The notes under the pieces are model-generated. The model had not been told where the DNA came from. It worked only from the letters and a program-made list of their open reading frames with translations, and did no database searches. A program made the translations under genes and the position numbers. Positions 3,001 through 61,200 of a stretch of DNA of 64,000 nt are shown here, piece after piece. The first letter of the stretch is position 1, and each line of letters opens with the position of its first letter. The stretch is from Harmothoe impar (Eukaryota > Annelida > Polychaeta > Phyllodocida > Polynoidae): assembly GCA_947462335.1 (NCBI GenBank), contig OX381720.1, positions 565,501 through 629,500 of the forward strand. The letters are read 5' to 3'.

Positions 3001-3164
3001 TTCCATTGATCTTCCATCATGGCTGATAACTCGGCTGGACTGAGCGCTAAATTTCTGCGTTCTACCACGTCCGCATAGACATTACGGAGGACTCCACACA
3101 TATCGGCAGTCCACTTTTCACCATTTTCCTGAGAAGATTGCTCATGGAACACTCCAGACTCCAT
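1..3164 (-). CDS. Helitron Rep/helicase, N-terminal part (cut by window edge)
   Basis: An uninterrupted frame of 1054 codons starts at the ATG at 3164 and is still open at position 1. The C-terminal third of the visible part matches the Helitron N-terminal (HUH Rep) domain. It has LFPYGHG at about residue 745, PDFFITLTQNDGWPE at about 870, and the metal-binding HUH motif HIHMVVW (His959 and His961), followed by the usual Cys-rich HEC..RC and CKYGFPFE segments. Two Cys pairs (CFNCG near 473, CYQC near 534) lie upstream. Residues 1-400 hold three KWT-initiated helical repeats, at about 18, 108 and 346, resembling SANT/Myb-type DNA-binding units and separated by acidic linkers. The catalytic Tyr motif and the PIF1-like helicase would lie left of the window. 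Rep of this family nicks and joins single-stranded DNA for rolling-circle-like transposition. No stop or frameshift is seen, so the copy may be young. Confidence 0.9.
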   Translation of the reverse strand, partial: MESGVFHEQSSQENGEKWTADMCGVLRNVYADVVERRNLALSPAELSAMMEDQWNVMYPDSPVSGLSLIRIYHLLEEKTPAYFNIRPPAYSECVKKEPPEKKKTVYTKWTEAMTENLEMCGAAALKIEAEFRFTEECSLKFGKLILVQWKKIYPDAKQSSQALVKRYQKLKENAELRGSVQFPRDAEWFAKRDAAIRSHGPGGDAGSEEQSDVPLLPKGPGGDGCTDGVDYFNKDKKRNRRGKPTVCYYESSQSEDQSQEQAKRRACDMDVDFVLDEPFLQQNSHVVGVDVSAEEEVDPPVKYKRKTKGPVVFDEDEDVEDDHEQEDVNAPVADGTAIVKVVKARVKWTPHLVEMLKLAMQRTEEQICMPNINSFHGMRSHLLAAHFNNLVPESNVHQSKIVSKASKLKKERKKAKWSDLPGEGKEAETGDNAGQADMPNDMCFNLSILSTIVYNRLIDTQVERSRDRLFQAVCFNCGMLLYGNLKYGHLFHRKKGPNEPPARITYSMSDYEFELPYEFTYLDGNTVVHKFYACYQCRRRPMNYYPCTANINPDPSHPAIFRLPEVVSALRNDHEKGNASLANIFSTTQKANNKARRIWVHKVGEVNVLPRVAHNYAGLYGYMVRRPDEEAQNVSDERIVAAVKFFGRNNFLFKDFKSNYETLYRHADIDLLPTETDCPDARGHPICEHLNDESVAWAVPLDPERGLPRLNPHEDIIGVQHSREFAVDLNKGISYRDKHLEAKAWTWLFPYGHGSWFERSDLKPMQYIKLRVLCYDSRWRSDINYSFFWVDRLIKDRLFYVAKTRVITTEPGTEVPNVGQLRESNSSTEGKFSQFGSTLPNTVVGSKSYWKARLLELVAVSTELGQPDFFITLTQNDGWPELQTVVKHGYGAYPTVPDGRICTDSNTSSTVLFSVETTVAFFKRFAQFKSYVLQNENGPIGKVRDSWYRVEFQGRGAIHIHMVVWCEPGTIPADAVRAEFPRPESREQHKDSVKEMRNVVGQFQIHECRPARCFPRVAGKIIRKCKYGFPFELTDEDGTAEGGIRYNYKRRHEE

Positions 3165-3223
3165 AGCAACTGTAGTACTGGTATTGTATGGCTAATTATG
3201 TTGCCTTGCACAACGCAGAGAAG

Positions 3224-34856: not shown

Positions 34857-36134
34857 TCAGCCCAACACAGGGCCCTTATTCGACCCCAGTCCTTTCTCAG
34901 CGAGTCTATGCCTACAACATAAATTAAAGTCAATAATTAGATCAGAACACACTACCACTGAATCAGGATTCATCGGACGCGACAAGCAGTCTGCTAGCAA
35001 ATTATCTTCAGACCGTATCCATGATGGTTTCAGATATATATTGTACAAGGCCGCCGTCCAGAATATTTCCCGCAGCCAACCCATAGTAGTTGGGTTTGAT
35101 CCCCTACCGGTACGTAATTCGTGGTACAGTTGTGTATTGTCCGTCACGACCTCCACCACACAATTCTTCCATGTGGTGCAACAGCGGTGGAGAGCAGTCA
35201 ATACTGGCCACAACTCTCCCACGTTAATGTTGTCCTTGTAAATTGGCTCGAGGGGCGCCTTTGCATGATGACCACAGACGGCCCCATGATCCCCCCAGAA
35301 CCCCCAGTAGTAGTCATCCTCTGAATGTCCTCCAAATCCAGTCGATGACTTGTCTGTGGTCAGAATCACAGACCTACAGTCTTTGTTGAACATACGGGCC
35401 TTCCCATTAAAAGTCACTATGAATGTAGCCCACCAGCTCAAGTCCAGGATAGCCAACTCACCCAGAGCAATTCTTTTACACTCTGGCCCACTATCTCTGA
35501 GCAGGTTATAGATCCTCCTGGTGTATGTACGACCCCCTCTGACTACAGCAGCGCAGTGTGCCAACAATCCCGCTGTCTGCTCGAGCAGCTTCCTTGAGCA
35601 CCACCTTTTACCTTTAAGCATAGTCACACAGTTGATCACACGTTCCAATTTGTCGTCCCCAATTGACAGGGTCAAGTCTACGGTATTTATTACTATACCC
35701 AAATACGTAATCACCTGGCTGGCCGACACCACCTTCTTCTCCACTACTTTGAAGCCCAACCTCCCCAGGACCGCATGTAGCGTCTCCTGGGCCACGTTAC
35801 AAGTATCCTGGGTCTTGCCCATGACCAAGTAGTCGTCCAAGTAATTGACAATGTTATTCACACTTTCTAGTTTTGTGCATTTTACAACAAAATCTGAGAC
35901 CTGAGTGAAAATCAACGGGGGAGACCGCAGACCAAAACAAATACACATGTCTTGAAACCAAACGCTACCTTCACCAGTGTCCCACTGGAACCCCTGGTAG
36001 TCTCTATGACTGGCTATTACATTACAACTGCAGTATGCCGAGGAGATGTCTGAGACAGCACAGAATTCACCCCCCTCCAACATATCCACCACGTCATCCA
36101 CAGATTTTATACTTAAACTTTGAGCATGACTCAT
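34857..36134 (-). pseudogene. Reverse transcriptase-RNase H of Ngaro-like element
   Basis: The frame covers most of RT and all of RNase H. Motif A is SDISSAYC, then a CFGL segment and the catalytic YLDDYLVMG. The RNase H residues appear in TTDKSSTGFGG, INVGELWPVL, VVTDNTQ and NLLADCLSR. The stop at 34857 is the natural end. The frame is out of register with the upstream RT start at 36094-36366. One extra A in an A-run near 36108 would explain this, so the gene is frameshifted. Confidence 0.9.
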
Positions 36135-36366
36135 CCATGTACAAGTTAATAATCACGTCTTCAGGAGAGGAAGAGTCTGTTATGGGTCTGAGTGACCCAT
36201 CCGGTTTGATTACACCCCCCAATGAATGGACACACGGGGGTTTATGAGAAACCTGGAGAATTTTGCCCGCCCCCAGCTCGCTCATAATTTTTTCAGACAT
36301 TTCAGCTTTAAATGCACCTTTTGTGACAGAACTATAATTCTCACAATAATACGCAGATTCACAACT
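36094..36366 (-). pseudogene. RT N-terminal piece, Ngaro-like pol
   Basis: Carries GGVIKPDGSLRPITD, the first RT motif of DIRS/Ngaro polymerases. A TAA at 36367-36369 separates it in frame from the pol piece upstream. It runs into the frameshift near 36108. Confidence 0.85.
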
Positions 36367-42150: not shown

Positions 42151-42203
42151 GGCGGGCAGCTGAAGAGAGCTGTAAGTAGCTTAGCTCTAGAAGCGAGAAG
42201 GAG

Positions 42204-42210
42204 TATATAA
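42204..42210 (+). promoter_or_regulatory. TATA box of Death-domain gene
   Basis: TATATAA, followed 25-30 bases later by an initiator-like TCACTC (about 42234). The ATG at 42270 has a strong context (CACCATGA). Confidence 0.7.
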
Positions 42211-42269
42211 GAGGCCTGGAAACACCCGTTCAATCACTCAGTCTTTTGCTGCTCTCTACAGGCACCACC

Positions 42270-42744
42270 ATGAGCAAAACACAACAACTACTGTCGTCCA
42301 AGGATCTAATCGAGTTCAAGAACAAGAAGAATACGCAGAACGGTGATCGTTTACTGTCAGCGTCTCCTCTTGCTACTGAAATTGAGACTACCGCCGCAAC
42401 CGCTTGGGCTTATCACCCTCCCGCTGTAGCGAGCGCACACAGCAGTAGTAGCGACGTTGTTACACTCGCGACGGTTGTTGCTGCTGAGCACACTGCTGCC
42501 GCTACTGCTGCGCCTGCTGCGGCTGCTAGTGATCCTCGTGCTGCTAGTGCTGCTGCTACTGCTGCTGCTGCTGCTGTTGCTGCTGCCGCGCCTGTTACTG
42601 CTGTGCCTGCTGCTGCTGCTGCTGCTGCTGCTGCCACGCCTGTTACTGCTGCGCTTGCTGAGGCGGCTGTGCCTGCTGCTGCTGTGCCTGCTACTGCTGC
42701 ACCTGCTACTGCTGCACTTGCTAGCGCTGCGCTTGCTCCTGCTG

Positions 42745-42782
<38 letters not shown>

Positions 42783-43856
42783 ACTACTGCTGCTGCTGCT
42801 ACACCTCTTGCTGCGACTACCGCTACTAGTACTGACACGCAGTACGTTGCACAGAACTTCTCCACCGCTTCATCAACCGACGCCATCAACGCTGCTCGCG
42901 CTGAGACTTACAGCTATTCGGACACTCAGCCTCAGCAGCGCGTAGTAGACATACATGTCCTAAAGCAACAGGGTGAAACAGAGAACGACGCTGACGACGA
43001 GGCGTACGAGGAACCCGAAGGGTCACGGGCGCACAGTCCGTTTTTCGACCTCATTTCCACTGGTAGTGCGTCCGGTCCGTGTCGCCTGCCCTCACCAATA
43101 CCTTACGAAGTCATGTGGTTGCCCTGTTCCGACAACGAGTCGTCTGATACCAGCGCAGACGCTGCTCCTGTTATTGGTTCTGCTGCAGCGGTACCTGTAT
43201 CATCATACTTCAAAGCAGAGCCGTTAGGATACTTGTCAGACGCTATGCTACTGAAAATAAGTGGTAAGTTGCCGACATCAGATTACATACGGTTAGGTTC
43301 ATTCCTTGAAGTGAACTTGAAGGATATGGGATATCTCAGTTGTGAGACAAGTGTCATAACTCAAGCTAGAGAAATGTTCACTACTTGGTACCAGAAAAGT
43401 TGTACTAGTAGGTGGAAGGACCTAGCCACCGCCTTGGAAGAATCTTACCGTATGGACCTCATCAAATTCTCACGTGAGTACATGGACAAGCATGACATGT
43501 GGGATGGCTTAGAGAGTGGAGACATGGAGTGGAAAGTGCAGAAATATTTCTCTCTTTTAGCTGAGCTCTGCCCTAGAGACTGGAAGACCATAGGGATCTA
43601 CTTAGGGTTGACTTCTCATGAAGTAACTTCCATCTCTCAACCTGTGCCTTCTGACAGGACTGTGAAGAACCCTGTGTATGAAGTGCTGAAAGCTTGGAAG
43701 TACAACGAGACGTCTGAGCCTATGGCTCTGATGAAAGTGTTGGAAGACTACATGGGACGCGGCGACGTCGCAATGTATGTTCAAGGGTTGTATGCAGCTG
43801 TACCCAAAGAAATAAAAGTGAGCTGTGACACTCCAGTGTTGACGACTCTCGTCTGA
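42270..43856 (+). CDS. Tandem Death-domain protein with Ala-rich region, 528 aa
   Basis: The frame is intact from the ATG at 42270 to a stop at 43856. The open frame extends a few non-ATG codons further upstream, but the TATA spacing and Kozak context favour 42270. Residues about 65-195 are an alanine-rich tract (mostly GCT codons) broken by Pro, Thr and Val. A Ser/acidic linker follows. Residues about 320-405 look like one Death domain (SRWKDLATALEESYRMDL). Residues 430-508 form a clearer second one (DWKTIGIYLGLTSHEV, then VLKAWKYN and MKVLEDYMGRGDVA). Death domains mediate homotypic assembly of apoptotic and innate immune complexes. A capsid- or enzyme-type domain is absent, so this is likely an adaptor or decoy. 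Many viruses and adintovirus-type elements carry such genes. Domain calls are by eye. Confidence 0.8.
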
Positions 43857-48073: not shown

Positions 48074-48805
48074 AATGTACTATTCTTTCCAGGAAAAAAA
48101 GTTCTTCATTTCATTACATTGACCTGCTAATAAAGAAAAGATGGATATCACACAAGAGTGATGAGAATGATTCAGTGGACAAAGCTTTCATCAATCACAG
48201 CAAAATGACACAATTTACACTGATTAACTCAACATAGATTCAGTCGCATATCATTTTAAAGATCAAGGCAAGTCATGTTGGGTAAAGTACTGACTGACTT
48301 TCTGATTGATTTTGGACACCATGCAGCCATGGCAATATGTAGCACTTGTCTGGTATGTCCCTATGAGGTGACTGTGGCACAAATCTATAACCCTGTACTT
48401 TTTCCCGACTAATGGTCATTCTTACTTTCCTGACTGCAGCTATAGATCACACATATTGTTGCAGACATATTTAAGCACATGGTAACAAAGAGCATACACT
48501 GAGCTTGTATATCAGTAAAAGTTGTCTAGCTCATGGAGCCTCCTAGTGTAAGAATCTGGGTTTGCAAACAAACCAGCTAATCCTCTAAAATTTACTATTT
48601 TTGAGCTACTTTCTTAAGTTTCCATAAGCATCATAGTTATCTTTGTCATACATTACAATAAATGGTGTACATCACAAATGACAAAATTACAATTGTGGCA
48701 CATATCATGGCCTGACTTTTTATTGATTCTCTTTTACAATCAAGGCTTATCAATGACTGATAATGACAGCAAGGATCACTCCAATATAGCATGATGTTAC
48801 ATATA
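48074..48805. other. Spacer, no gene recognised
   Basis: AT-rich sequence with no feature I can support. Confidence 0.4.
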
Positions 48806-49700
48806 CCCTTGTAGCTCCCCCGGCCTCCTGGTAGTTCCCCCTCCCTCCTTGTAGCTCCCCCGGCCTCCTGGTAGCTCCCCCAGCCTGCTGGTAGCTCCCC
48901 GGCCTCCTGGTAGCTCCCCCAGCCTCCTGGTAGCTCCCCAGCCTCCTGGTAGCTCCCCCGGCCTCCTGGTAGCTTCACTGGCCTCCTGGTAGCTCCCTGG
49001 GCCTGCTGGTAGCTCCCCGGCCTCCTGGTAGCTCCCCCTCCCTCCTGGTAGCACCCCCTCCCTCCTGGTAGCTCTCCCAGCCTCCTGGTAGCTCCCTGGG
49101 CCTGCTGGTAGCTCCCCTGCCTCCTGGTAGCTCCCCTGGCCTCCTGGTAGCTCCCCGGCCTCTTGGTAGCTCCCCCAGCCTCCTGGTAGCTCCCCCTCCC
49201 TCCTGGTAGCTCCCCCAGCCTCCTGGTAGCTCCCCTGGCCTCCTGGTAGTTCCCCCAGCCTCCTGGTAGCTCCCTGGGCCTCCTGGTAGCTCCCTGGGCC
49301 TCCTGGTAGCTCCCCCGGCCTCCTGGTAGCTCCCCCGGCCTCCTGGTAGCTCCCTGGGCCTCCTGGTAGTTCCCCCAGCCTCCTGGTAGCTCCCTGGGCC
49401 TCCTGGTAGCTCCCCCTGCCTCCTGGTAGCTCCCCCTGCCTCCTGGTAGCTCCCCCAGCCTCCTGGTAGCTCCCCCGGCCTCCTGGTAGCTCCCCCGGCC
49501 TCCTGGTAGCACCCCCGGCCTCCTGGTAGCTCCCCCGGCCTCCTGGTGGCTCCCCCTGCCACCTGGTGGCCCCCCCGGCCTCCTGAGAGCTCCCCCAGCC
49601 TCCTGGTAGCACCCCCGGCCTCCTGGTAGTTCCCCCGGCCTCCTGGTAGCTCCCCTGGCCCCCTGGAGGCTCCCCCAGCCTCCCGGTAGCTCCCCCAGCA
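48806..49700. repeat. G/C-skewed minisatellite, 20-bp unit, about 45 copies
   Basis: The unit CCTCCTGGTAGCTCCCCCGG varies at the last three to four bases. The minus strand is G-rich (GGGGGAGCTACCAGGAGG). Because the unit is not a multiple of three and has no stop word, all three minus-strand frames are open for hundreds of codons, which gives misleading long ORFs of Gly/Arg/Gln/Glu repeats. Confidence 0.9.
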
Positions 49701-51829
49701 TAGCAGATAAGATAGACGCATTATATATATATAACAACTCACCAATAGAGATATACTATTTGAATTTGTTCAGTTGGTTAGTGCCATAACTTGAAATTGA
49801 AATTCTTTAAAAAAAACAAGACAGTGTTTTACCAGCTCACTAGTATCTTGCCTGTATCTTGGGCAGGTCAATATGCATGATATTGGAGTTTATAATGTGT
49901 TCAATTTGCAATTGCACATAGCATAGGGAGCACATCTGACTGAATTCACAAAGAGACAAATGTTAAGAGTTTTATCTAAATATGCAATGAAAATAGATGT
50001 TATTTATAGAAGTGAGTATTAACTATCGGATGTTTAAACAATTAGAATGACAGGTATTGAAGGACAACAAGGCTGCATTTCTAATATGCACATTAAACAC
50101 ATTGTGGACAGGATGAGGGAAGGTCCTTAGTTACCAACTGGTGAATCCACCATACAGGAACACCTGCAGTCACCACCTCACCTCACCATGAAGCCTTTAA
50201 CCATACTGTAACTTGTCAGATTATGTTGATACAGTGATACTGTGTTATATATTTATATATGTATATATATCATATATAGTATATATATATAAATATATAT
50301 TTATAAAGATAAATATATCCATGAGCCAGGAGGTAAGTGGGTACCATCTTGCGCACCAAGGTTCATACCATTTTTTTGAAAGATATATGTCTGGGGATCA
50401 TTTTTTTGTAGGGTAGCAGTTGGGACATGGTAGCCATCTGTATGTAATCAGAGGTCAAAGGTCAAGGTCATGCCAAAACCCATTTACCATGAAAATTCAA
50501 TGAAAATTCAATGAAATTGAGTGTACTTCAGAAGATAAACAAGCTAGGTCTCCAATATTGTGTGTGTGTATTGAGCTACAATAGTCATACAGTGTATGAT
50601 AATCAGGTGACCTTGGGTGGAGGTCAAGGTCATATTTGGGCCAAGGTCAAGGTCATAATTGTCAAGGTCAAATATCAAAATATTGGTCAGAAATAAGTAT
50701 GCCTGATAGTCATGGCTCTTATGGCAGTTCTGGCTGCAGAGATATAAAAGGTTGTGTTTATGGGCTTTGGTAATACTACCCAAGCTACCAAATATGTGTG
50801 AAAGTCTTTTAAGGAGATAAGTAATATGAGTTCTATTTGTTGATTTACTGAACAACAATGAATTGAAGCAAGCATCCATAGAGCATACTGATATTATGTA
50901 ATAAACAAGAGAAAGAAAACAATATACATAAAAGGAGTATTAATATTAGTAGACTGTTTCATTGAGGTTTCAGAAGTCAAATTTTTTATATTTCCATGAA
51001 CTTGTTGCTATGTTTGTTGCTATGCTCTGTGGTTGCTAGGCAACAAATAAGTAAAATTATTTCAGTGGTTACACTTGATCTAAGATGTGGGTGTCCATAT
51101 GTATTGTGCTAAAGTTTCTTGTATTGATAACAATACAAAGCTGGAGGTATTTAAACTTAAAACTTGAAGGAAAAAACAAAAACAAGACAATTTTCTGTAA
51201 TGCCCCTGGTGGCAGAATTAAGAACTAACTGCCTTAAAAGGTGGGAAACTATTGAATAACACATATAAAGGTACAATGTTAATGAATCTCACAAATTTTC
51301 ATTCATGAAATTATAAAATAATTTTCCAAATATTAATAATTGGAAAAGGAGATGGATTAATAACTAAATCTGATTACTAAACTATGAGCCAAACTGTGTG
51401 CTGGCTTGGTAACAGAGAGGAAAATAGCTTGAAGACAAGCAGACAAGCAGACAAGCTCTACCAAGAATGAAATCATTGTTTTGAAGGATACAAGAAGTGT
51501 TCCGAATGTAAGTATTGAACATCTTTGATCTTCTTAACCCTTAGGTTCACAATGTATCATAAATAACATTTTAATTTGTAAATATACTAGTTTAAATCAG
51601 ACTTATTTAATATGTTATGTCATAGTGAGTGATAAGTGAACTTAGTTATGGCGGCCATTGAATGCTGACGTGCACACATTGGGCTCCTGCCTAAACATGG
51701 ATTTAAGCAGTATAATGTGTAATCTGACGGACTAAACATTACTAGGATTACGTATAAGTACTTAGTGCAACCACTAGGAATAGTTAGGTCAGGATCAAAC
51801 GTCTGGTTATTAAAATCCAGGCATATACA
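49701..51829. other. AT-rich spacer and possible LINE 5' UTR
   Basis: A (TA)n-rich stretch is at 50240-50310 and an AGGTCA-rich stretch at 50450-50680. The last few hundred bases before 51830 may be the LINE 5' UTR, but its 5' border cannot be fixed. Confidence 0.4.
50450..50680 (+). repeat. Cluster of AGGTCA half-sites
   Basis: GAGGTCAAAGGTCAAGGTCA at about 50451 contains a DR1 arrangement and the extended TCAAGGTCA form. At least five further AGGTCA words lie at 50619-50675. It may be a degenerate minisatellite or nuclear-receptor binding DNA. Confidence 0.5.
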
Positions 51830-54787
51830 ATGACACAAAAGGACAAAAAGGCCAGGAAACTACACAGGAGGGCAGCAGGAAGGGGTAGAGGCCGGGCAGT
51901 CCTATGTGTCCCCCTCAACCATGGAGCTACTGCACCAGGTAGACCTGGAACACCAAAGAGATCACGTTCAGAAAGTGGAGGTGAGATTTCTAAGCTTATA
52001 GACAGAAGCCCATCCGAAATCTCACCCATTTATAAAAGGAACAGGTTTGAGTTACTACAGACACCAACCCCAGTAACTAGGGACGCCAAATCCACCATTG
52101 TTGACGGTGGTCAAGGCAAACCCCCACCGACAAACACGGATACTAACACAGCCATGATCGACTTGCCACCCTCCTCATTAAGGGGTGACAGTATTGTGGA
52201 AATACCTGACCCAACCAAACTGGCAATCAATTTTGCCAACCAACATTCTACCCCAAAACCGCATCTACCACTTGGTATTGATGGAAATGAAATAGACTCT
52301 GACTCTGTCTTAGCCGGAGGGGGTCAGGGCATTATCACTGCAGCTGTATCCACAGCTGTAATAGATACCTCCAGTACTCCTACAAGAAATCCGCTAGAAG
52401 AATTCATGGATGATTTAAATGCATCTATCATAAATAGGAGTTCAGCAGGATATGTTGCTGACGTGAACCTCATGGCAGGGAGGGGAGGAGGGAGGAGGGA
52501 GGCCCTCAGCTCTACTAGGGCACTGACCCCTCCTGACTCCCCTGATACTGGAGCCCATGTATGGCCACCTCCACCACCACCACTACTACCCACGGAGGTA
52601 TACACGTACAACACACCACACGGCACAGCTACCATGTATACACCCCTCCCCCCAGCTCCGTCAACTGTACCACCTGACAGCTACCTGCCTGGAGCTGTCC
52701 CTGACCCTACACTCTATATGAGCAACAGGATGTACGGTATGATGGAATACATAAAGGAGAATATGGTGAAAAAGGATGAATTGAAGGGCCAGATGGACTC
52801 TTTATCATCCAACTTTGACTCGAAAATAAACTCAATGTCAAGCAGCCTAGACATTAAACTGAATAATCTGGGCACCAGGCTAACTGCGTGTGAGTTAGCT
52901 ACAACCAATCACCAAGCAAGTGTGGAAAAGGCACTCAACGAACAGAAGGCAGCCTGTGCACTCCAGGTTAAGGCTGTCTCAGATGATATGAGTGCCAAGC
53001 ACCAACAGCTATCGACTAAATTAGATACTCATATTGGTGAATTTGCTCAAATGAAACAGACCTTGAATGAAATCCAGTCACATCAATCAAAGGTCAGTAT
53101 CCAGGCTGCTGCATCAGCTGGCAGTGGTTATTCTGCCTCCGTTACCATGGGTATGAAAAAGCCAGAAATAGCTCGCCCTGGTCCAGTTAGTTCACACCCA
53201 CTGCAGTCAAAACGTCCCACATTTAACGCAGTGGTTGTAGGTCTTGAACCTGAGCCTAATGAAAACATCTTTGATGTATTAGGTAAAATCATGAATGCAC
53301 TGGGAGTGCATTACGTGAAAGAGGACATCTCATCAGTGGCACGTATTGGCAGACCAAGTAAGAAGCCCAGGCCTATAATCATAGAATTCTACTCAGCAGA
53401 GATGCTGGATACAGCACTGGATGTGAGATCCAGAATAAAATCTCTGGGTAATGAGGTCTGGTTCAATCCTGATGAACCCAGGGACGTCAGGATCCAGAGG
53501 TATATGTTACGCAAAATATACAATCACATCCGTGATGAGCCTAATACCTTTGCTGCACTGGATGATGAGGGTCTCATGATCAATGGACAGTTATACCCTC
53601 CCACAGCTGAGAGTGTGAAGTCGATCCCTACTCAATACAGGCCTGCTGACCTACACACTCCTAAGGCTACAGGGAAGAAAACAAACAATCCTAATGCAGT
53701 GAAGTCTTCTGCACCTAAAGCCAATGCTGGGACTCACCAGCCTCAGGTAACCGCTAGTGCCACCCATGCACCTAACCTAGCCACTCTGCACGACCCCCTC
53801 CCCCCAGCAACAACCACTGGCCAGTCCCTCCCACCCACCGTGACGCACGTCCCCGAGGCGGCTGCCGTCACCGCCCTGCCTCCACCACCACCACCCAGAG
53901 GGCCCGCCCGTAAACAGGCTAGCTCAGTCACTCTCCACCACCCTGCACCTGTGGTCATTTGCACCACCAACCAAAACCAACAGCAGCAGAGAACGAAAAC
54001 AAAACACACTGAAGAGAAGGCAGGCAAACGTGCACCATCTTCTTTTATCAGAACCAAGAACACCCCACCTGAAAAGATTACCATGACTAAACATGGGCTA
54101 ATCTTCAGTGGGGTAGAGGCATTTCTAAGTAACTTTTACCCCTGTCCTGTGCGCTGCATCCTAAATGGTACTGATGTCACCTTTGCCTCTGTGGAGCAGG
54201 GATATCAGTACTGCAAAGCAATGCACGTGCATGCCTATAAGGCTGCTGAGGAAATCCTGGCTGAGCCACATGCTCCAGCCAACAAGTCAAGAGGTCGAGA
54301 AGTGGATACTGATGGTTCAGACTGGCCAAACCTGGCAGTACCCATTATTCATGCACTAGCACTCGCCAAATTCACACAAAACACCACCTGCAGGACCAGA
54401 CTGACACAAACTGGCATAACTACACTCTGGGAGGGATGCTCCTGTTCATTCTGGGGCGCAGGCATACCCTTTGGAGAACCCGAATATCATACTCTGGACA
54501 CATTACCTGGTCAGAATGTGATGGGAGGTGTCCTCATGAACATCCGAGAAGTGCTGCAACACAAGACACACCTTTATGGAACAGACCCCAGGGCACCCCC
54601 TGTGATCTCATTGCCACTAGTCAGCCGTCACCGACAGCCACCACCACCACCACCACCACCACCACACACACCAGCACCTCCTCACTACGGCCCACCAACC
54701 CACCCACCACACATGTATGGCCAACACATGGGTATACACCCCAGCCAACAACCACACCGAGCTCCCCTTAACACATACAGGTACTGA
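51830..54787 (+). CDS. LINE ORF1 protein with C-terminal NADAR (YbiA-like) domain, 985 aa
   Basis: The ATG at 51830 opens an uninterrupted frame. The N-terminus is basic (KKARKLHRRAAGRGRGR), followed by a long Pro/Ser/Thr linker. Residues about 300-425 form a coiled coil. Residues about 460-605 resemble the RRM-like domain of LINE ORF1 proteins (FNAVVVGLEPEPNEN, SVARIGRPSKKPRPIIIEF). Residues about 755-910 match the NADAR/YbiA family in order: FLSNFYPCP, ASVEQGYQYCKAM, ALALAKFTQN, TGITTLWEGC, FWGAGIPFG, GQNVMGGVLMNIREVL. NADAR proteins act on N-glycosidic ADP-ribose or related nucleotide adducts. A His/Pro-rich tail closes the protein. All key blocks appear intact. The first parts should bind RNA and oligomerise, while the role of NADAR here is unknown. 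Confidence 0.85.
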   Translation: MTQKDKKARKLHRRAAGRGRGRAVLCVPLNHGATAPGRPGTPKRSRSESGGEISKLIDRSPSEISPIYKRNRFELLQTPTPVTRDAKSTIVDGGQGKPPPTNTDTNTAMIDLPPSSLRGDSIVEIPDPTKLAINFANQHSTPKPHLPLGIDGNEIDSDSVLAGGGQGIITAAVSTAVIDTSSTPTRNPLEEFMDDLNASIINRSSAGYVADVNLMAGRGGGRREALSSTRALTPPDSPDTGAHVWPPPPPPLLPTEVYTYNTPHGTATMYTPLPPAPSTVPPDSYLPGAVPDPTLYMSNRMYGMMEYIKENMVKKDELKGQMDSLSSNFDSKINSMSSSLDIKLNNLGTRLTACELATTNHQASVEKALNEQKAACALQVKAVSDDMSAKHQQLSTKLDTHIGEFAQMKQTLNEIQSHQSKVSIQAAASAGSGYSASVTMGMKKPEIARPGPVSSHPLQSKRPTFNAVVVGLEPEPNENIFDVLGKIMNALGVHYVKEDISSVARIGRPSKKPRPIIIEFYSAEMLDTALDVRSRIKSLGNEVWFNPDEPRDVRIQRYMLRKIYNHIRDEPNTFAALDDEGLMINGQLYPPTAESVKSIPTQYRPADLHTPKATGKKTNNPNAVKSSAPKANAGTHQPQVTASATHAPNLATLHDPLPPATTTGQSLPPTVTHVPEAAAVTALPPPPPPRGPARKQASSVTLHHPAPVVICTTNQNQQQQRTKTKHTEEKAGKRAPSSFIRTKNTPPEKITMTKHGLIFSGVEAFLSNFYPCPVRCILNGTDVTFASVEQGYQYCKAMHVHAYKAAEEILAEPHAPANKSRGREVDTDGSDWPNLAVPIIHALALAKFTQNTTCRTRLTQTGITTLWEGCSCSFWGAGIPFGEPEYHTLDTLPGQNVMGGVLMNIREVLQHKTHLYGTDPRAPPVISLPLVSRHRQPPPPPPPPPHTPAPPHYGPPTHPPHMYGQHMGIHPSQQPHRAPLNTYRY

Positions 54788-54881: not shown

Positions 54882-55517
54882 ATGCGCTCCCTATTAATTG
54901 GGGACTCCAGAGTTAGTAGGCTCGCCAGCTACATGGATCCAAATGAATGTGCCACTGAAAGTATTGGTGGTGCCACTCTACAGCGGATATGTAGGAGAGT
55001 ATGTGAACTGTTGCAGGAGGGAAACATGTACAAGTGCATCTACATCAGTGCAGGTATATGTAATCTAGTGAAAAGGAATCCTCAGTATGTCTCCCACGTA
55101 GTGAATGCACCTAGTCTAAGTGTATTTAAACAGAGGTTCCTAGCTGAACTTCAGTTTATAATCTGCAAAATCCAGAGTCTGGTCGATGAGATTCCAGTCA
55201 TCTTTGTGCCCTTTTATGGTGCAGAGTTAATGATTCTGAATGGACCACCCTACTATCATGACCCCACTCAAAAGCAATTAGACACACTTGTGCTGTATGT
55301 TAATGCAGCTCTACATCGTCTCAACAAGAGTGGAGGGTTTGTAAGCCCTCAGGTAGATGCACTAGTCCACATCTACCACAGCTGGTGCCGAGACTATGAG
55401 CACCGTTACTGGCTGTTATACGATGGCATACACCCATATGATACCCTCTCTCAGATGGAGGCTAAGGAAATCCAGCTGGCCATGGATGACAATAAATCCC
55501 TTGGACTGCATGATTAA
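54882..55517 (+). CDS. SGNH/GDSL hydrolase ORF of the LINE, 211 aa
   Basis: The first ATG in frame is 54882 (MRSLLIGDSR), although the frame is open from just after the ORF1 stop in another register. Block I is GDSRVSRL (the nucleophile Ser), block III is SAGICNL, and block V is DGIHPY, with Asp and His of the triad. Such esterase domains are known within or next to ORF1 of CR1 and related LINEs, where they may act on lipids or acetyl groups. The ORF starts 95 bases after the ORF1 stop, so reinitiation or frameshifting might express it. No signal peptide is evident. Confidence 0.8.
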   Translation: MRSLLIGDSRVSRLASYMDPNECATESIGGATLQRICRRVCELLQEGNMYKCIYISAGICNLVKRNPQYVSHVVNAPSLSVFKQRFLAELQFIICKIQSLVDEIPVIFVPFYGAELMILNGPPYYHDPTQKQLDTLVLYVNAALHRLNKSGGFVSPQVDALVHIYHSWCRDYEHRYWLLYDGIHPYDTLSQMEAKEIQLAMDDNKSLGLHD

Positions 55518-55544
55518 ACGACACATCACTGACTGATTGTTGAA

Positions 55545-56535
55545 ACAAACACTACTTTGATATGTTTTGGCAAAATAGTAGTTTTTTGCATAATCTGTTT
55601 CTCTCTTTGGCCAAAAGAGCTTACACACATATAATATATTACCTGGGAAGCTGACCATAAGCAAAGAGTTGCAGGCAGTCTTCACTTGTAATGTTTGTAT
55701 TGAATTACCCATTGCACACCTAGTATAGAAATATGCTATTACACACTGCCATCAATAGATCCTCATTGTGCACACTACACGTTGATATGTTGCTATTTGG
55801 CATAATAGTAGTTGGGTTTTTTTTTTTTTTGTGTGTTTTTTGTGTGTGTTTTTTTTGTGTGTTTTTTTTTGTTGTTGTGTGTTTTTCTTTGTTTTTTGCA
55901 TAATCTGTGTCTGTCTTTGACCAAAAGAGCTTACACACATATAATATATTACCTGGGAAGTTGACCATAAGCAAAGAGTTGCAGGCAGTCTTCACTTGTA
56001 ATATTTGTATTGAATTACACATTACACATTTAGTATAGAAATATGCTATTATACACTGCCATTAATAGATCCTTCATTGTGGATATTACATATTGATATG
56101 TTGCTGTTTTGGCATAATAGTAGTTCTTTGGCGTAATCTGTGTCTCTCTTTGACCAAAAGAACTCACACAATATAATATATTACCTGGGAAATTGACCAG
56201 AAGCAAAGAGTTGCAGGCAGTCTTCACTTGTAATATTTGTATTGAATTACACATTACACATTTAGTATAGAAATATGCTATTATACACTGCCATTAATAG
56301 ATCCTTCATTGTGCATATTACATATTGCTATGTTGCTATTTTGGCATAATAGTAGTTCCTTGGCGTAATCTGTGTCTCTCTTTGACCAAAAGAGCTCACA
56401 CAATATAATATATTACCTGGGAAATTGACCATAAGCAAAGAGTTGCAGGCAGTCTTCACTTGTAATATTTGTATTGAACTACACATTACACATTTAGCAT
56501 AGAAATATGCTATTATAGACCGCCAGTAATAAATC
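55545..56535. repeat. Tandem repeat between LINE ORFs, about 235-bp unit
   Basis: Units begin near 55721, 56031, 56267 and 56497 at 'tagtatagaaatatgctatta', with a partial unit upstream. The first full unit is longer (310 bp) because of a T/GT-rich expansion at 55819-55890. The rest of 56536-57481 is AT-rich, with a T-run and an A-run near 57140-57225. Confidence 0.85.
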
Positions 56536-57481
56536 GTTCATTGTGCATATTCTACGAGACTGTGGTCCAACTGCTGCTGGCTTCAGTCAATCATATATAC
56601 CATGAGGGAGTAACCAATTAGCAAAGTGTTGCAGGTTGCCTACCATATATGTACTACTGTAATTGATCAATTTGATCTGAGTTATTGAATAGCTGAAGGT
56701 TTCACGACTGACAATCTAATCCTTTTGTGTGTAAGACCAATGAGCAAAGTGTTGCTGGTCAAATGCCTGATATGTATTACAGAAGTATCCACACAATCTG
56801 ATAGGTTATTTACCCATTACATAATATAACACTAACAATTATACTATCCATTCCCACTCGATCAACTGTATTAACTATGTATCTCTTAGTCTGTCAACCT
56901 AAATATCATATGCCCACATTGGGCTGAGTGGTACACTGGCATTCTAAAAATAGTTCAGTTTTCTGAACTCCTATTTCTTTCTCTCCAACTTATGATCGAA
57001 ACTGGAATGACTAACACATAATGCATGCTTCAAGTACTGTATCCTTCTGCCTTGTGTCATATCTAATCAGACAATAGTGATTGATGTACACACTGGCTCT
57101 TTCCTTGGATCATACTAAAGACATGTTAGACATTTATTTATATATTTTTTTTATTTTTATTTTTTTTTCTCCGAATATCACAGTTTTGGAAAAAAAGAAA
57201 ACTCACCAAAAAACAAAACAAAACAAAAATTAGTTAGCCTAGCCCCTTAGGAGCCACTACTTGGTTCAATAATACATTTGCATTACTTCATTCCTGGGGC
57301 CCGTCACCCCTTTTGTGGCCCATGTTTGGTTACTATTGACACTTATATAAATGTCAATTCACTGATTACACCCACTGTTTATGCACAGGTGTGCCACACT
57401 CACGTGTGATACAGCTATGCTTAATCAGCCACCAGACTTCGCTGCTAGTTTGTGCTACATGCGCAACTGTCTGAATAATCC

Positions 57482-57865
57482 ATGGGCAAAGGAGCCCCAC
57501 CATCAAGCAATATTGTAATGGACTGCCCCCTGATGAATGGTCATTATGGGACCTTAAACCATAGCTTTAACCCCCTACTAATAATCACGCACCCTGTGAG
57601 AACTATGCATGAGTCATATGTTTCCTCACAGTCCATCACACAGTCTGAGCACTTTAGCTCAGCTGATGGACTTATGTTGGCACACTGTATGCCCCTGCAC
57701 ATTAACACTTTGAAGAAAAAAATACAAAAAATGAGTTTAGTAAAAGAGTACCACACATACATAGGCCCAACTTATGTCAAGCCCTTTTTTCTTGACACAA
57801 AGGGTGCCTGGCCAACTACCACAACCAAAGGGTTCCAAATACCATCAGCGCTTCTACTCGCCTAA
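57482..57865 (+). CDS. Hypothetical 127-aa ORF before LINE ORF2
   Basis: An ATG-initiated frame that ends 8 bases before the ORF2 start. Composition is unremarkable (His, Thr, Pro rich) and there is no recognised domain. It may be chance or a leader ORF. Confidence 0.2.
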   Translation: MGKGAPPSSNIVMDCPLMNGHYGTLNHSFNPLLIITHPVRTMHESYVSSQSITQSEHFSSADGLMLAHCMPLHINTLKKKIQKMSLVKEYHTYIGPTYVKPFFLDTKGAWPTTTTKGFQIPSALLLA

Positions 57866-57873
57866 ATGAGCTC

Positions 57874-60780
57874 ATGTCAATGAAGGGTATGAAGATAGGT
57901 CATCATAATATCAGAAGTATGGTGGCCCAAAAGAAATTTGAGGTTATAACTGACCTCGTGCCTCTCTTCGATATATTCTGTGTAACAGAAAGCTGGTTAG
58001 TCGAGCCATATCCAGACAATAAAATAATAGTGGGTCAATACCAAACTTATAGACTGGATAGAGTGATAGACAAAAATGGCGGGGGTTTACTGATATATGT
58101 CCACAATAGATTAGCTCCATATTGCTCAATTGTACACACGCTTACAAAATCTAATGCTGATATAGAATTACTTGTCATGAACTATACTGAGGATAAGCAT
58201 CGCCTGATGACCATAGTACTCGCGTATAGACCTCCCAACAGTAGTTATGTCAGATGCCTTGACACATTACTCGAAGCCTGTCAGGACGACCTGCTGGAGG
58301 GTAGGGAGCTATGGTTATTAGGTGACCTAAACATAAACCTTTTTGACCCTGACCATCCTAAAACAAAGAAATATCATAAGGTCTTAAGTGATCTAAACCT
58401 AATGGATAAAATTAACATAATCACTAGACCAAACCAGAATGGTCATGGAGGCTCCTGCATCGACCCTATAGCCACAAACTGTGACATAGTGATGCACAGT
58501 GGCACTCTACCAGAATATGTATCAGATCACTTACCCGTTTATGGTGTTAGGAAACGTCCTAAATTAGTACCGGTGAATATCACTATAAATGGTAGGTCTT
58601 ATAGGAAGTATGATAGAGGCAGATTTACTGACTATCTGCTAAATATAGATCTGTCTATCTTTAATGCTAGTAACAATGCCGATGATAAGTGGAACATACT
58701 ATTACTGTACATACATACATATTTAGACAAGCATTGTCCCATAAAGGAAATGAAGCTTAAAGATTATGGTAAGGAATGGATGAATAATGATATTCTTGAA
58801 CTAATACACCGCAGGAACGAGGCCATGCATGAATATTGCACTGCTGGCAAAAACAACCCTGACTTGCTGCAACTAGCCAAAGACCTTAGGGACGAGATAA
58901 ATATTGCATCAGAGTATGCTCAAGATAATTTCATGGTAGATAAATTGGAAACTCTGTCCAACAACCCATCAAAATTCTGGCGTGAATTGAACATCCTGTT
59001 AGGTAAAAGTAGTAATAACAAACCTGAAATCTCTCTAAAACATCATATAACCAAGGAGGAGCTGCGGGGTGATAAGGTTCCAAGTTATATTAATGATTTT
59101 TTCTCCACTGTTGGAATTGATTTGCTGAACAAACTAGGAACTGTAGCAGAGGTAACCCCCCTCTCTGATCCTGTGACACAAACATATTCAGAAATTCCCA
59201 CAACCACTATCAGTTACGGTGAGGTCATGAAGCTGGTTAAGAATATAGAAGTGCACAAATCAAGTGGTGTGGATAATATCTCTACTACAGTGCTTAAGGA
59301 CGCTCTAATTATACTCTGTCCACAATTGACATCAATAATTAATTGTAGCTTACATACAATAACCTTCCCAAAGTCCTGGGCAACCGCCAAAGTAGTTCCC
59401 CTACCTAAATCAGGGGACTTAAAGAACATAGGAAATTGGCGACCAATTTCTCTTTTACCGGTGCCGAGCAAAATAATGGAACGTATCATTTATAGCCGCA
59501 TCTATTCATACCTAGAATCAGATAAAAAACTATCCAAGTTCCAATATGGTTTTCGTTCATCCAGGGGCTGTAGTGATGCACTGTTTTCTCTTGTCAATGA
59601 CATTTACAAGGCGAGAGATGAAGATATGATAGTCACGGCATGCTTTCTGGATATACGTAAGGCTTTCGATTCGATCCATCATGGTGAGCTCATTGCAAGA
59701 ATGAAATCATATAATTTACCTATTATATACACTGACTGGCTACATTCATACCTGAAAAACCGAAAACAGCGTGTCATTTGTAACAACACTTCATCATCTC
59801 TACTTGATATCAGATGCGGAGTGCCGCAAGGGTCTATATTGGGCCCCCTATTGTTTATCTGTTTTATTAATAGTCTTCCTGATCAGCTTATACACTGCCG
59901 AGTTTCTATGTATGCAGACGATGTTGTGTTTTATGTACCTGGTCGCACTTTAGCAGAAACTGAGTTAAAGTTGCAAAACGATGCTACCAGAGTATATAAT
60001 TGGTTTAGCAAAAGTGGTTTATGTATCAACACTGCCAAGACAAAAATAATGATTTTCAATCAGCCTAGGACTCATAATCAGACAATATCTATTTACATGG
60101 GTACAACTGAGCTAAGTGTCTGTGACTCCTATGAATATCTAGGAGTCATTTTGGATAGCAGGCTTAACCTTAATAAAATGGTGAATCAAACAGTATCCTC
60201 TAGCTCTAATAGACTATTCATGTATGGTAATCTACGTAAGAAAATGTCTCAGAGAGTAGCTACCCTTGTATATAAGCAAACTATATCTCCAGTTTTAGAA
60301 TATTGTGGCTTTCTGTATAATGGCCTGACAGAAACTAACCAATTGTCTCTACAGCGGGTTCAAAACCGCTGTCTGAGAGTCTGTTTGAAAGTAAGACTTA
60401 AGTTCAATGTAATAAAGCTGCATGAGGAAACAGACATACCTTTTATCGGTGTCAAGCATGATATGCAGTTACTGTTACTAACACACAAGTATGTCTACAG
60501 TGGTAACACTGACTTTGCCAACAAAGGCCTAATGTTGGAAAATGTTAGACAAGTAGGTATGAGGACGCGCTCTGCCGAAACAGGTCTATTAGTCTACCCC
60601 CCATCCAAGAAAAATGGGTTTAAAAAGAGTCCACTTTATAGAGGTATAGTTTTATGGAATAGCCTACCCCCTGAATGTAGAACATGTACAGATATCATTA
60701 CTTTTAAGAGGCTCACTAAGGCAATTTTAATTGCCATGCATATGAAGAAGTGGCGCAAGATTTATAAGCAGCCTGTTTAA
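57874..60780 (+). CDS. LINE ORF2: EEP endonuclease and reverse transcriptase, 968 aa
   Basis: The ATG at 57874 starts MSMKGMKIGHHNIRS, which opens the exonuclease-endonuclease-phosphatase fold. The catalytic blocks follow: CVTESWL, LAYRPPNSSY, LLGDLNIN and VSDHLPVY (residue about 215). RT begins near residue 455 (SSGVDNIS), with PLPKSGD, NWRPISLLPV, FQYGFRSSRGC, LDIRKAFDSI, CGVPQGSILGPLLF and the YADD active site near residue 680. The C-terminal 200 residues are a helical domain without a zinc knuckle, as in CR1 elements. The endonuclease nicks target DNA and RT primes from the nick. The frame is intact throughout, so the copy could be active or recently so. Confidence 0.95.
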   Translation: MSMKGMKIGHHNIRSMVAQKKFEVITDLVPLFDIFCVTESWLVEPYPDNKIIVGQYQTYRLDRVIDKNGGGLLIYVHNRLAPYCSIVHTLTKSNADIELLVMNYTEDKHRLMTIVLAYRPPNSSYVRCLDTLLEACQDDLLEGRELWLLGDLNINLFDPDHPKTKKYHKVLSDLNLMDKINIITRPNQNGHGGSCIDPIATNCDIVMHSGTLPEYVSDHLPVYGVRKRPKLVPVNITINGRSYRKYDRGRFTDYLLNIDLSIFNASNNADDKWNILLLYIHTYLDKHCPIKEMKLKDYGKEWMNNDILELIHRRNEAMHEYCTAGKNNPDLLQLAKDLRDEINIASEYAQDNFMVDKLETLSNNPSKFWRELNILLGKSSNNKPEISLKHHITKEELRGDKVPSYINDFFSTVGIDLLNKLGTVAEVTPLSDPVTQTYSEIPTTTISYGEVMKLVKNIEVHKSSGVDNISTTVLKDALIILCPQLTSIINCSLHTITFPKSWATAKVVPLPKSGDLKNIGNWRPISLLPVPSKIMERIIYSRIYSYLESDKKLSKFQYGFRSSRGCSDALFSLVNDIYKARDEDMIVTACFLDIRKAFDSIHHGELIARMKSYNLPIIYTDWLHSYLKNRKQRVICNNTSSSLLDIRCGVPQGSILGPLLFICFINSLPDQLIHCRVSMYADDVVFYVPGRTLAETELKLQNDATRVYNWFSKSGLCINTAKTKIMIFNQPRTHNQTISIYMGTTELSVCDSYEYLGVILDSRLNLNKMVNQTVSSSSNRLFMYGNLRKKMSQRVATLVYKQTISPVLEYCGFLYNGLTETNQLSLQRVQNRCLRVCLKVRLKFNVIKLHEETDIPFIGVKHDMQLLLLTHKYVYSGNTDFANKGLMLENVRQVGMRTRSAETGLLVYPPSKKNGFKKSPLYRGIVLWNSLPPECRTCTDIITFKRLTKAILIAMHMKKWRKIYKQPV

Positions 60781-61200
60781 TACAGGACAAATTGTATACA
60801 GTTAATACTTGGTTACTTAATTTTCACAACCTGTTATTCTTTATACCATTGTCTGTATGAGTTAGAATGCAATAACACTGGAACCCTGTTGGTACCTGTT
60901 TGGCTGTGCTATAGTAGCCTATTATTCATTTACCTGTTTGTAACTACTTCACTTGAGAATATGACAGTTGTAAACCTAAAATGCTGTTCATAGAAATATT
61001 AATGACATAATATCCTGGTTATACTACTAATCCTTTGTAATCCTCAATACATGTACAACCGTGATCATGACATCAAACTTTGGTGTGTAGAGAGGCAAGG
61101 GACGAATTGCACGTCTAACACCCTCTACATACATTTGATCATTGAATTGTATTTATGAAAATCACCTGGTGAAAATAAATACTCTTTAAACTCAAAAAAA
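60781..61200 (+). other. LINE 3' UTR and end
   Basis: AT-rich sequence with AATAAA near 61173, ending in 'taaactcaaaaaaa'. A clear target duplication was not seen. Confidence 0.5.

Follow-up and report, generated by a model that had tools for sequence, protein, structure and literature searches.

The window analysed here is a stretch of 64,000 nucleotides of the polynoid annelid Harmothoe impar (assembly GCA_947462335.1, contig OX381720.1, positions 565,501 to 629,500), and it contains on its forward strand the element whose features are listed in Table 1. By its ORF2, which codes for an endonuclease and a reverse transcriptase (RT), this element is a LINE (non-LTR retrotransposon): in Pfam, the RVT_1 match lies above the cut-off (E=1.2e-40), and Exo_endo_phos_2 (1.3e-5) and Exo_endo_phos (0.0018) are both placed before the RT and below their cut-offs (25.5 of 27.4 bits and 18.5 of 24.5 bits). 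The RT is far from that of human L1 (24% identity), and CR1 is a plausible clade for the element. Its ORF1 protein (ORF1p) runs from a low-complexity N-terminus through a probable coiled coil, an RRM with a CTD, and a linker, to a NADAR domain and a proline-rich tail. In our view the element is best explained as a copy, apparently intact, from a LINE lineage that is old and has diversified.

Table 1. Features of the NADAR-bearing LINE (window positions)
Feature	Position	Strand	Remarks
5' region	51681..51829	+	51681 is the start of similarity to L029 and L030; the region reaches at least this far
ORF1	51830..54787	+	985 aa from ATG
Probable coiled coil of ORF1p	52718..53101	+	residues 311-438 of the stop-to-stop frame; suggested by weak Pfam matches below cut-off
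RRM of ORF1p	53216..53473	+	found by fold
CTD-like helix and strands	53480..53656	+	3' of the RRM, in the style of L1 ORF1p
NADAR domain	54119..54556	+
NADAR codon E43	54194-54196	+	P. nicotianae numbering
NADAR codon K50	54215-54217	+	P. nicotianae numbering
NADAR codon E125	54431-54433	+	P. nicotianae numbering
Small separate ORF, SGNH/GDSL-like	54882..55517	+	211 aa; weak Pfam match to PF13472
Spacer, SGNH-like ORF to ORF2	55518..57873	+	tandem repeat ~55563-56551
ORF2	57874..60780	+	AP-type endonuclease ~57937-58542; reverse transcriptase 59404-60153
3' untranslated region	60781..61200	+	ends in AATAAA ... AAACTCAAAAAAA (read from the sequence)

The true 5' end of the element was not found, and neither was a target-site duplication (the longest shared word, of 9 bp, is no longer than in shuffled sequences); an Rfam scan of the window returned nothing at gathering thresholds. 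The 3' end is similar to the ACTCAAA-repeat ends of two other elements (L013 and L014), and a spacer of about 1.8-2.2 kb occupies the same place in two related elements on other contigs, L029 and L030. The SGNH-like ORF has counterparts in L029 and L030 (66-68% identity) and in L012 (37%); its matches to PF13472 (E=0.019 in the window, 8.7e-4 in L029 and 4.2e-4 in L030) score 15.9-21.3 bits, below the cut-off of 32.9, and the ORF of L012 and of L026 has no Pfam match. L029 and L030 also carry, at the corresponding position, a counterpart of a small ORF that lies just before ORF2 (57479-57865); the sequences agree little, and this ORF is not regarded here as a gene.

The RRM-like domain that the initial annotation placed in ORF1p escaped our sequence searches and is seen by fold only; structurally, the RRM and CTD part is matched best by human L1 ORF1p, which bears that proposal out. 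Upstream of the RRM a coiled coil is probable. On its predicted fold, with the RRM followed by the CTD, the protein would be a type II (L1-type) ORF1p, a type found in human LINE-1 and also in some CR1 and L2 subgroups (PMC4120745), from which it differs in that a NADAR domain comes after the CTD. The ORF1p domains named in PMC4120745 are RRM, CCHC, PHD, CTD, coiled coil, zinc finger/leucine zipper and esterase, a list that does not include NADAR; RRM-CTD-NADAR is an added ORF1p architecture.

The complete-looking NADAR domain reported at the C-terminal part of ORF1p proved to be one by profile (PF08719, E=1.6e-22, 81 bits against a curated cut-off of 35.1) and by predicted fold. The AlphaFold2 model (pLDDT 94.9) has as its best PDB match in Foldseek the NADAR-ADP-ribose complex of Phytophthora nicotianae (8bau, E 9.4e-9), and it also matches E. 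coli YbiA (2b3w, 1.9e-6), the comparison suggested at the outset. Protein database searches gave little: with the NADAR domain alone, one match among 70 candidates (P0001, 34% identity); with ORF1 residues 768-930, none among 133 long candidates; with ORF1 residues 420-930, none at E<=0.001 among 8000 scored, probably because low-complexity words swamped the candidates. Two scans of viral contigs, one using ORF2 and the other NADAR, turned up no relative.

The fusion recurs widely in the 1.5-Gb genome. Of 3484 NADAR candidates the best 150 were scored against Pfam, and all 150 pass the cut-off. Downstream of 20 hand-picked loci we read an endonuclease and RT of the window type in 17, a deeply divergent endonuclease and RT in two and another element in one; L029 and L030, which are additional to these 20, repeat the whole layout of ORF1, SGNH-like ORF and ORF2. 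NADAR is the best conserved domain of ORF1 between the window and these two elements (77-78% identity, against 67-69% in the RRM region). Its dN/dS was measurable in 12 pairs out of 18 and lies at 0.03-0.17 in these, the pairs being non-independent and many having a high dS (above 2.5 in three), and the domain is under purifying selection. Two NADAR-bearing families have spread recently, their members lying on different contigs: L022 and L023 are 99.05% identical over 5156 bp, L013 and L014 99.2% identical over 6070 bp and 98.2% over a further 733 bp. One could argue for a one-off capture, an assembly artefact or a chance fusion in the window copy, since among the scored candidates there is no close second ORF1 of its family, the nearest being 61% identical. 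However, the repeated layout on other contigs, the 150 candidates and the selection on the domain all speak against this, and we consider it extremely improbable. The question whether the fusion is shared by other families of related LINEs, and whether its codons are constrained between copies, is in this way answered positively on both counts; we are nearly certain that NADAR serves the element as a functional part maintained by selection, and its recurrence under selection across many families suggests that it helps these LINEs to copy themselves.

The two deeply divergent loci deserve a comment. From PDB scores alone (L1 90.9 bits, R2 66.9 bits) L020 and L028 could be taken for L1-like elements, but direct comparison does not support this (L020 stands as close to the window RT, with 112 bits, as to L1, with 95.5 bits), and in the RT tree L020 joins the window-type rows and not L1. 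They are a second, deeply divergent RT group.

E43, K50, K75, W89 and E125 (P. nicotianae numbering) are identical in all 23 aligned LINE rows and in the four host-like rows; in the window domain the catalytic E43, K50 and E125 are E35, K42 and E114. Residues at these three positions of E. coli C7 NADAR affect guanine-ADPr hydrolysis and DarT1 rescue, with a minor effect in vitro of Ala and inactivity with Gln at the E43 position, and K115 (equivalent to K75) is required for rescue and dispensable for catalysis (PMC11543638). The ADP-ribose contacts are another matter: the window copy keeps R79, W89 and W133 of 8bau, has Ala at R93 and, whichever alignment register is used, no Asp at the D130 position (R93 and D130 are named as contacts in PMC11543638), and across the LINE rows R79 is Arg in 5/23, R93 is kept in 7/23 and D130, counted at W-3, in 13/23. 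In the nematode protein SNA-3, mutated residue sets including an Asp and a Trp, which we take by spacing for D130 and W133, impaired function (PMC9303266), so that a NADAR lacking D130 may have changed catalysis or none.

A NADAR tree in which the host-like rows and P0001 stand together against the LINE rows is not rejected (p-AU 0.259), and hence the tree speaks neither for nor against one common origin of the LINE domains; the only positive hint of one is the active-site loop, which from E125 to the W133 column spans 7 positions in all 23 LINE rows and 8 in 8bau and 2b3w. NADAR in a LINE ORF1 is already in print: a 2025 paper reports that Tx1 LINEs in the oyster Crassostrea gigas have a YbiA-family NADAR in their ORF1 (PMC12477816), and the present LINEs are a variant of that fusion and not its first instance. 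The oyster elements, classed as Tx1 and set beside ours by description, are mentioned there in a single sentence that does not touch on selection, mobility or ORF1p architecture; what we add is these three aspects and the occurrence in two deeply separated RT groups. The same paper describes NADAR in Ectocarpus Gypsy elements, likewise retroelements, which are LTR elements with the domain in Pol and for which the authors suggest possible horizontal acquisition. Certain RNA-virus polyproteins offer a parallel in a selfish genome with an ADP-ribose-processing domain alongside its replication proteins; the carrier here is a LINE, and the virus authors argue for targeting of host ADP-ribosylation. 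SNA-3 is similar as an animal nuclear RNA-handling protein whose function needs conserved NADAR residues, and differs in being the product of a host gene, one that serves SL1 trans-splicing, and in having three NADAR domains (PMC9303266).

What might the domain do? We predict that the LINE NADAR is probably an active hydrolase or N-glycosidase. Counter-defence, that is, reversal of host ADP-ribosylation, would fit NADAR biochemistry: related enzymes remove ADP-ribose from DNA bases, guanine adducts are the nucleic-acid substrate described in the literature, and eukaryotic NADARs assayed elsewhere hydrolyse guanine-ADPr (PMC11543638). Host ADP-ribosyltransferases would place ADP-ribose on the RNA or cDNA of the element, on target DNA or on protein of the RNP; ORF1p, joining an L1-type RNA-binding part to a catalytically active NADAR, would carry the enzyme to element RNA and cDNA, where it would hydrolyse these adducts, most likely on guanine, so that copying can proceed. 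We give such removal of ADP-ribose from element nucleic acid or RNP an even chance of being correct, and it is the best explanation overall; that resistance to host ADP-ribosylation is the purpose of the domain is a more tentative suggestion.

NADAR may instead have been retained for binding or for structure (as a reader of ADP-ribose, RNA or protein, or as an aid to ORF1p assembly), a role for which full catalysis is unneeded. The variable R79, R93 and D130 would agree with this, as would families such as L022, where NADAR follows close behind an RRM-like stretch (read by eye) as an accessory RNA-binding part would, and SNA-3, an RNA-metabolism protein whose NADAR domain 1 is without catalytic residues (PMC9303266). 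However, the residues that never vary comprise the catalytic E43, K50 and E125 as well as those of the fold, and we think this explanation rather unlikely. It is also conceivable, if unlikely, that the domain is active as an N-glycosidase or as an ADPr-processing enzyme and serves to mature or repair the RNA of the element itself, host defence playing no part. The location in an RNA-binding protein and the link of NADAR to RNA processing (PMC9503650, PMC9303266, PMC12477816) favour this idea, which is close to a suggestion made in PMC12477816; yet the RNA-processing literature cited establishes no RNA substrate of a NADAR, and sequence cannot separate maturation or repair from removal of host ADP-ribosylation.

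What NADARs do in eukaryotes, and in animals among them, is described as unclear (PMC11125620), and vertebrates are said to lack the domain (PMC11543638, PMC9303266). A LINE lineage that has kept NADAR under selection while its RTs diverged deeply, and that has spread recently, makes it practicable to test how NADARs function in animals and whether nucleic-acid ADP-ribosylation restrains transposons. As a speculation that we consider doubtful, NADAR could serve invertebrate LINEs generally as a counter-defence module. Their hosts would tag the nucleic acids or RNPs of retroelements through (guanine) ADP-ribosylation, and LINEs from two or more deeply separated RT groups would have in common a NADAR eraser, carried in ORF1p and going back to one origin, that allows copying. 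If true, hosts would possess a defence against transposons, based on nucleic-acid ADP-ribosylation, that has so far gone unrecognised.

The initial annotation had seen a complete-looking NADAR domain in the ORF1 of the LINE studied, and this is borne out: PF08719 is the one domain above the Pfam cut-off in ORF1, an AlphaFold2 model of the domain has a pLDDT of 94.9 and a pTM of 0.88, and a structure search of the PDB with the window NADAR returned, at E <0.001, only 8bau (P. nicotianae NADAR with ADP-ribose) and 2b3w (E. coli YbiA), the same two that a profile search returned (3.8e-29 and 3.5e-24, respectively). The similarity of the element to its nearest relatives in the genome (L029 and L030) starts at 51681; its true 5' end was not found, and no flanking repeat beyond shuffled sequence was found that would mark a target-site duplication.

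Features of the window, and host-like NADAR ORFs of the same genome
Feature	Position	Strand	Evidence or remark
ORF1 open frame	51788-54787, first ATG 51830	+	open reading frame
NADAR domain in ORF1	54119-54556	+	PF08719, E=1.6e-22
Separate ORF, SGNH/GDSL-hydrolase-like	54882-55517	+	Pfam likeness below cut-off
Spacer between SGNH-like ORF and ORF2	~2.4 kb	+	partly tandem repeat
ORF2, endonuclease (EN) then reverse transcriptase (RT)	57874-60780	+	RVT_1 1.2e-40; EN below Pfam cut-off
3' end of LINE	AATAAA, then A-rich end near 61200	+	sequence reading
Long open Helitron-like protein	3-3191	-	Helitron_like_N E 1.7e-23; runs off window start
RT ORF of another retroelement	34857-36152	-	RVT_1 2.4e-9
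ORF with Death domain	42180-43856		E 1.3e-10; alanine-rich sequence before domain
GC-rich minisatellite	48646-49769		three reverse frames open; repeats such as ELPGGRGSYQEAGGATRRPG
Host-like NADAR ORF L001	G000:C19:3413638-3417087		
Host-like NADAR ORFs L002-L004	G000:C21:30056293-30086070		three within 30 kb

The genome, judged by its size, its kinds of element and the Death-domain ORF of the window, is probably that of an animal. The PF08719 profile was run over its 1.51 Gb (736 contigs), and the best 150 of 3484 first-look candidates were scored, a best-first and hence non-random sample; all 150 exceed the cut-off without an internal stop. From these, 20 loci (L009-L028) were picked by hand for long frames and a spread of scores, so that NADAR is present in all 20 by choice of sample, and L029 and L030 were added later. 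Window-type EN and RT matches lie downstream on the same strand in 17 of the 20 (L009-L017, L019, L021-L027), the RT being 34-58% identical to that of the window, and partial, at the end of the locus, in L014 and L026. Two further loci (L020 and L028) carry an EN and RT of another group, and in the last (L018) the NADAR ORF1 is followed directly by another kind of retroelement (L018:5134-9778), which has an RT and weakly matches a tyrosine recombinase and was perhaps inserted into the LINE. L029 and L030, 61% identical to the window ORF1 query, are arranged like the window element, with an ORF1 frame (1009 and 1017 aa, respectively) followed by the SGNH-like ORF, a spacer and ORF2, and with the 17 window-type loci they make it plain that the fusion is not a one-off.

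The RRM query matches 12 of the 20 loci at E<=1e-3 (an RRM-like stretch in L022 was read by eye only). For the SGNH query there is a clear match in L012, a weak one in L026 and none in the other 18. Extra ORFs of ~250-355 aa, which may be further accessory LINE proteins, stand between NADAR ORF1 and ORF2 in L013/L014, L019, L016 and L021; the two checked (L013 and L019) have no significant Pfam match. In a search with window 53120-54560, 89 of 7871 candidates were scored, which gave a list of 141 ORF1 matches; none of the 141 matches the RRM half without an adjoining match to the NADAR half, an outcome favoured by the picking of candidates on the whole query. NADAR is only partly covered in two of these matches, three have one stop, and no close second ORF1 of the window family was seen among the scored candidates (89 of 7871). 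Contigs C9, C16 and C17 have no rows among the listed PF08719 and ORF1 matches; the remaining contigs numbered 1-21 do.

The dN/dS of NADAR codons between copies was computed by Nei-Gojobori over 18 chosen, non-independent pairs, and the ratios, 0.03-0.17 in the 12 pairs where they are finite, show purifying selection on the NADAR of these LINEs. The most informative pairs are L024-L027 (dS 0.26, ratio 0.10), L020-L028 (dS 1.27, 0.09) and L029-L030 (dS 1.78, 0.03); three finite ratios have a dS >2.5 behind them, and of the remaining pairs four are saturated, one is identical and one has one nonsynonymous and zero synonymous changes. For EN and RT the ratios, where finite, lie at 0.02-0.13, apart from EN values of 0.27 and 0.37 in two near-identical pairs that differ by few changes; the EN of L007-L008 has six nonsynonymous and zero synonymous changes. 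L022 and L023, on different contigs, are 99.05% identical over 5156 bp, and L013 and L014, also on different contigs, 99.2% identical over 6070 bp with a further 733 bp past an insertion, from which we conclude that NADAR-bearing ORF1s have spread recently.

Whether NADAR and RT have travelled together was judged from groups set mainly by the RT tree (L018, L026, L028, L029 and L030, which have no RT row, were placed by hand) and then compared with the NADAR tree. The window, L013 and L015 groups and L020/L028 each form one side of a branch in the NADAR tree, and the L022 group is broken up. Co-inheritance is thus general in the sample, though not without exception, because the RT of L025 joins L022/L024/L027 (100/99) and its NADAR falls elsewhere, with L026; exchange of ORF1 and a long-branch effect are both possible explanations of this discord.

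Against the PDB, the window RT scores R2 (3.4e-17) and human L1 (5.2e-16) about equally, and that of L020 has L1 (4.8e-25) above R2 (8.8e-18). A nearer relation of the L020 RT to L1 is not borne out by direct comparison (95.5 bits, 26% with L1; 112 bits, 26% with the window RT) or by the RT tree, which joins L020 to the window-type rows and not to L1 (95/88, with very long branches); RTs of the window type reach 214 bits or more against the window RT. On these bit scores and this tree we regard L020/L028 as a second RT group, about equally distant from the window type and from human L1 in score, and no closer to the window type than human L1 is. The window type itself may be CR1/L2-like, to judge by its motifs and by 3' tails made of short repeats, (TTGAA)n in L022/L023 and ACTCAAA in L013/L014. 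Both groups share one peculiarity of the domain: from E125 to the W133 column there are 7 positions in all 23 LINE rows (the window copy and 22 loci), whereas 8bau, YbiA and the four host-like genes have 8, and P0001 (the one match of the domain among 70 protein-database candidates, 34% identity) has 9. This common loop suggests either a shared origin of the LINE NADARs or an exchange of ORF1 between LINE groups, of a kind that PMC4120745 argues for in other ORF1s. An arrangement of the NADAR tree that keeps the host-like rows and P0001 together against the LINE rows is not rejected (p-AU 0.259); the tree, in which long branches call for caution, neither shows nor excludes a single origin. The host-like rows, L001-L004, are short and are the four highest-scoring NADAR ORFs (Pfam 150-178 bits); they look like host genes, since they cluster together, have D130 and keep the standard loop length.

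Pocket residues were placed via 8bau, whose numbering is used, with roles as given in PMC11543638. In the window copy the catalytic E43, K50 and E125 are kept, as are K75, R79, W89 and W133; two ADP-ribose contacts are lost, R93 being replaced by Ala and D130 being absent. Across the LINE rows E43, K50, K75, W89 and E125 are present in 23/23, W133 in 19, with Y or F replacing it in the other four, D130, scored three positions before W133, in 13, R93 in seven and R79 in five. The ten rows lacking D130 belong to the window group (eight) and the L015 group (two); in two of them (L010 and L017) an Asp lies one position further on, and the shorter loop could bring it into register from the other side. 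To judge from these alignments, the catalytic centre is retained and other ADP-ribose contacts have drifted, and the substrate may therefore be altered.

The ORF1p of L1-type LINEs coats the RNA of the element. A NADAR within ORF1p would be tethered on the RNA-cDNA intermediate, and the simplest selected benefit would be that ADP-ribose is taken off nucleic acid or protein there. Guanine-ADPr is hydrolysed by bacterial NADARs and by those of a phage and an oomycete (PMC11543638, PMC11125620). The clam protein CARP-1 and the butterfly pierisins, which modify guanine N2, would be possible invertebrate sources of such adducts; that NADAR erases these is an assumption in the paper concerned (PMC11543638). 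ZAP belongs to the PARP family. It is reported to restrict human retrotransposition (PMC4441479), the NADAR of animal RNA viruses is argued to oppose host ADP-ribosylation (PMC9503650), and retrotransposon NADARs are suggested to process the RNA intermediate (PMC12477816). Sequence alone does not choose between removal of ADP-ribose, opposition to host ADP-ribosylation and processing of the RNA intermediate.

A NADAR in a LINE ORF1 was already described in 2025, briefly, in PMC12477816, the single paper found with YbiA, LINE and ORF1 as whole words; in titles and abstract openings, from a literature with most subscription journals outside its scope, no other transposable element with a NADAR was noticed. 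What we add is the RRM-CTD-NADAR architecture, by structure, and a wide radiation within one genome over two deeply separated RT groups, together with purifying selection and recent spread, the common shorter loop and the changes in the pocket residues.
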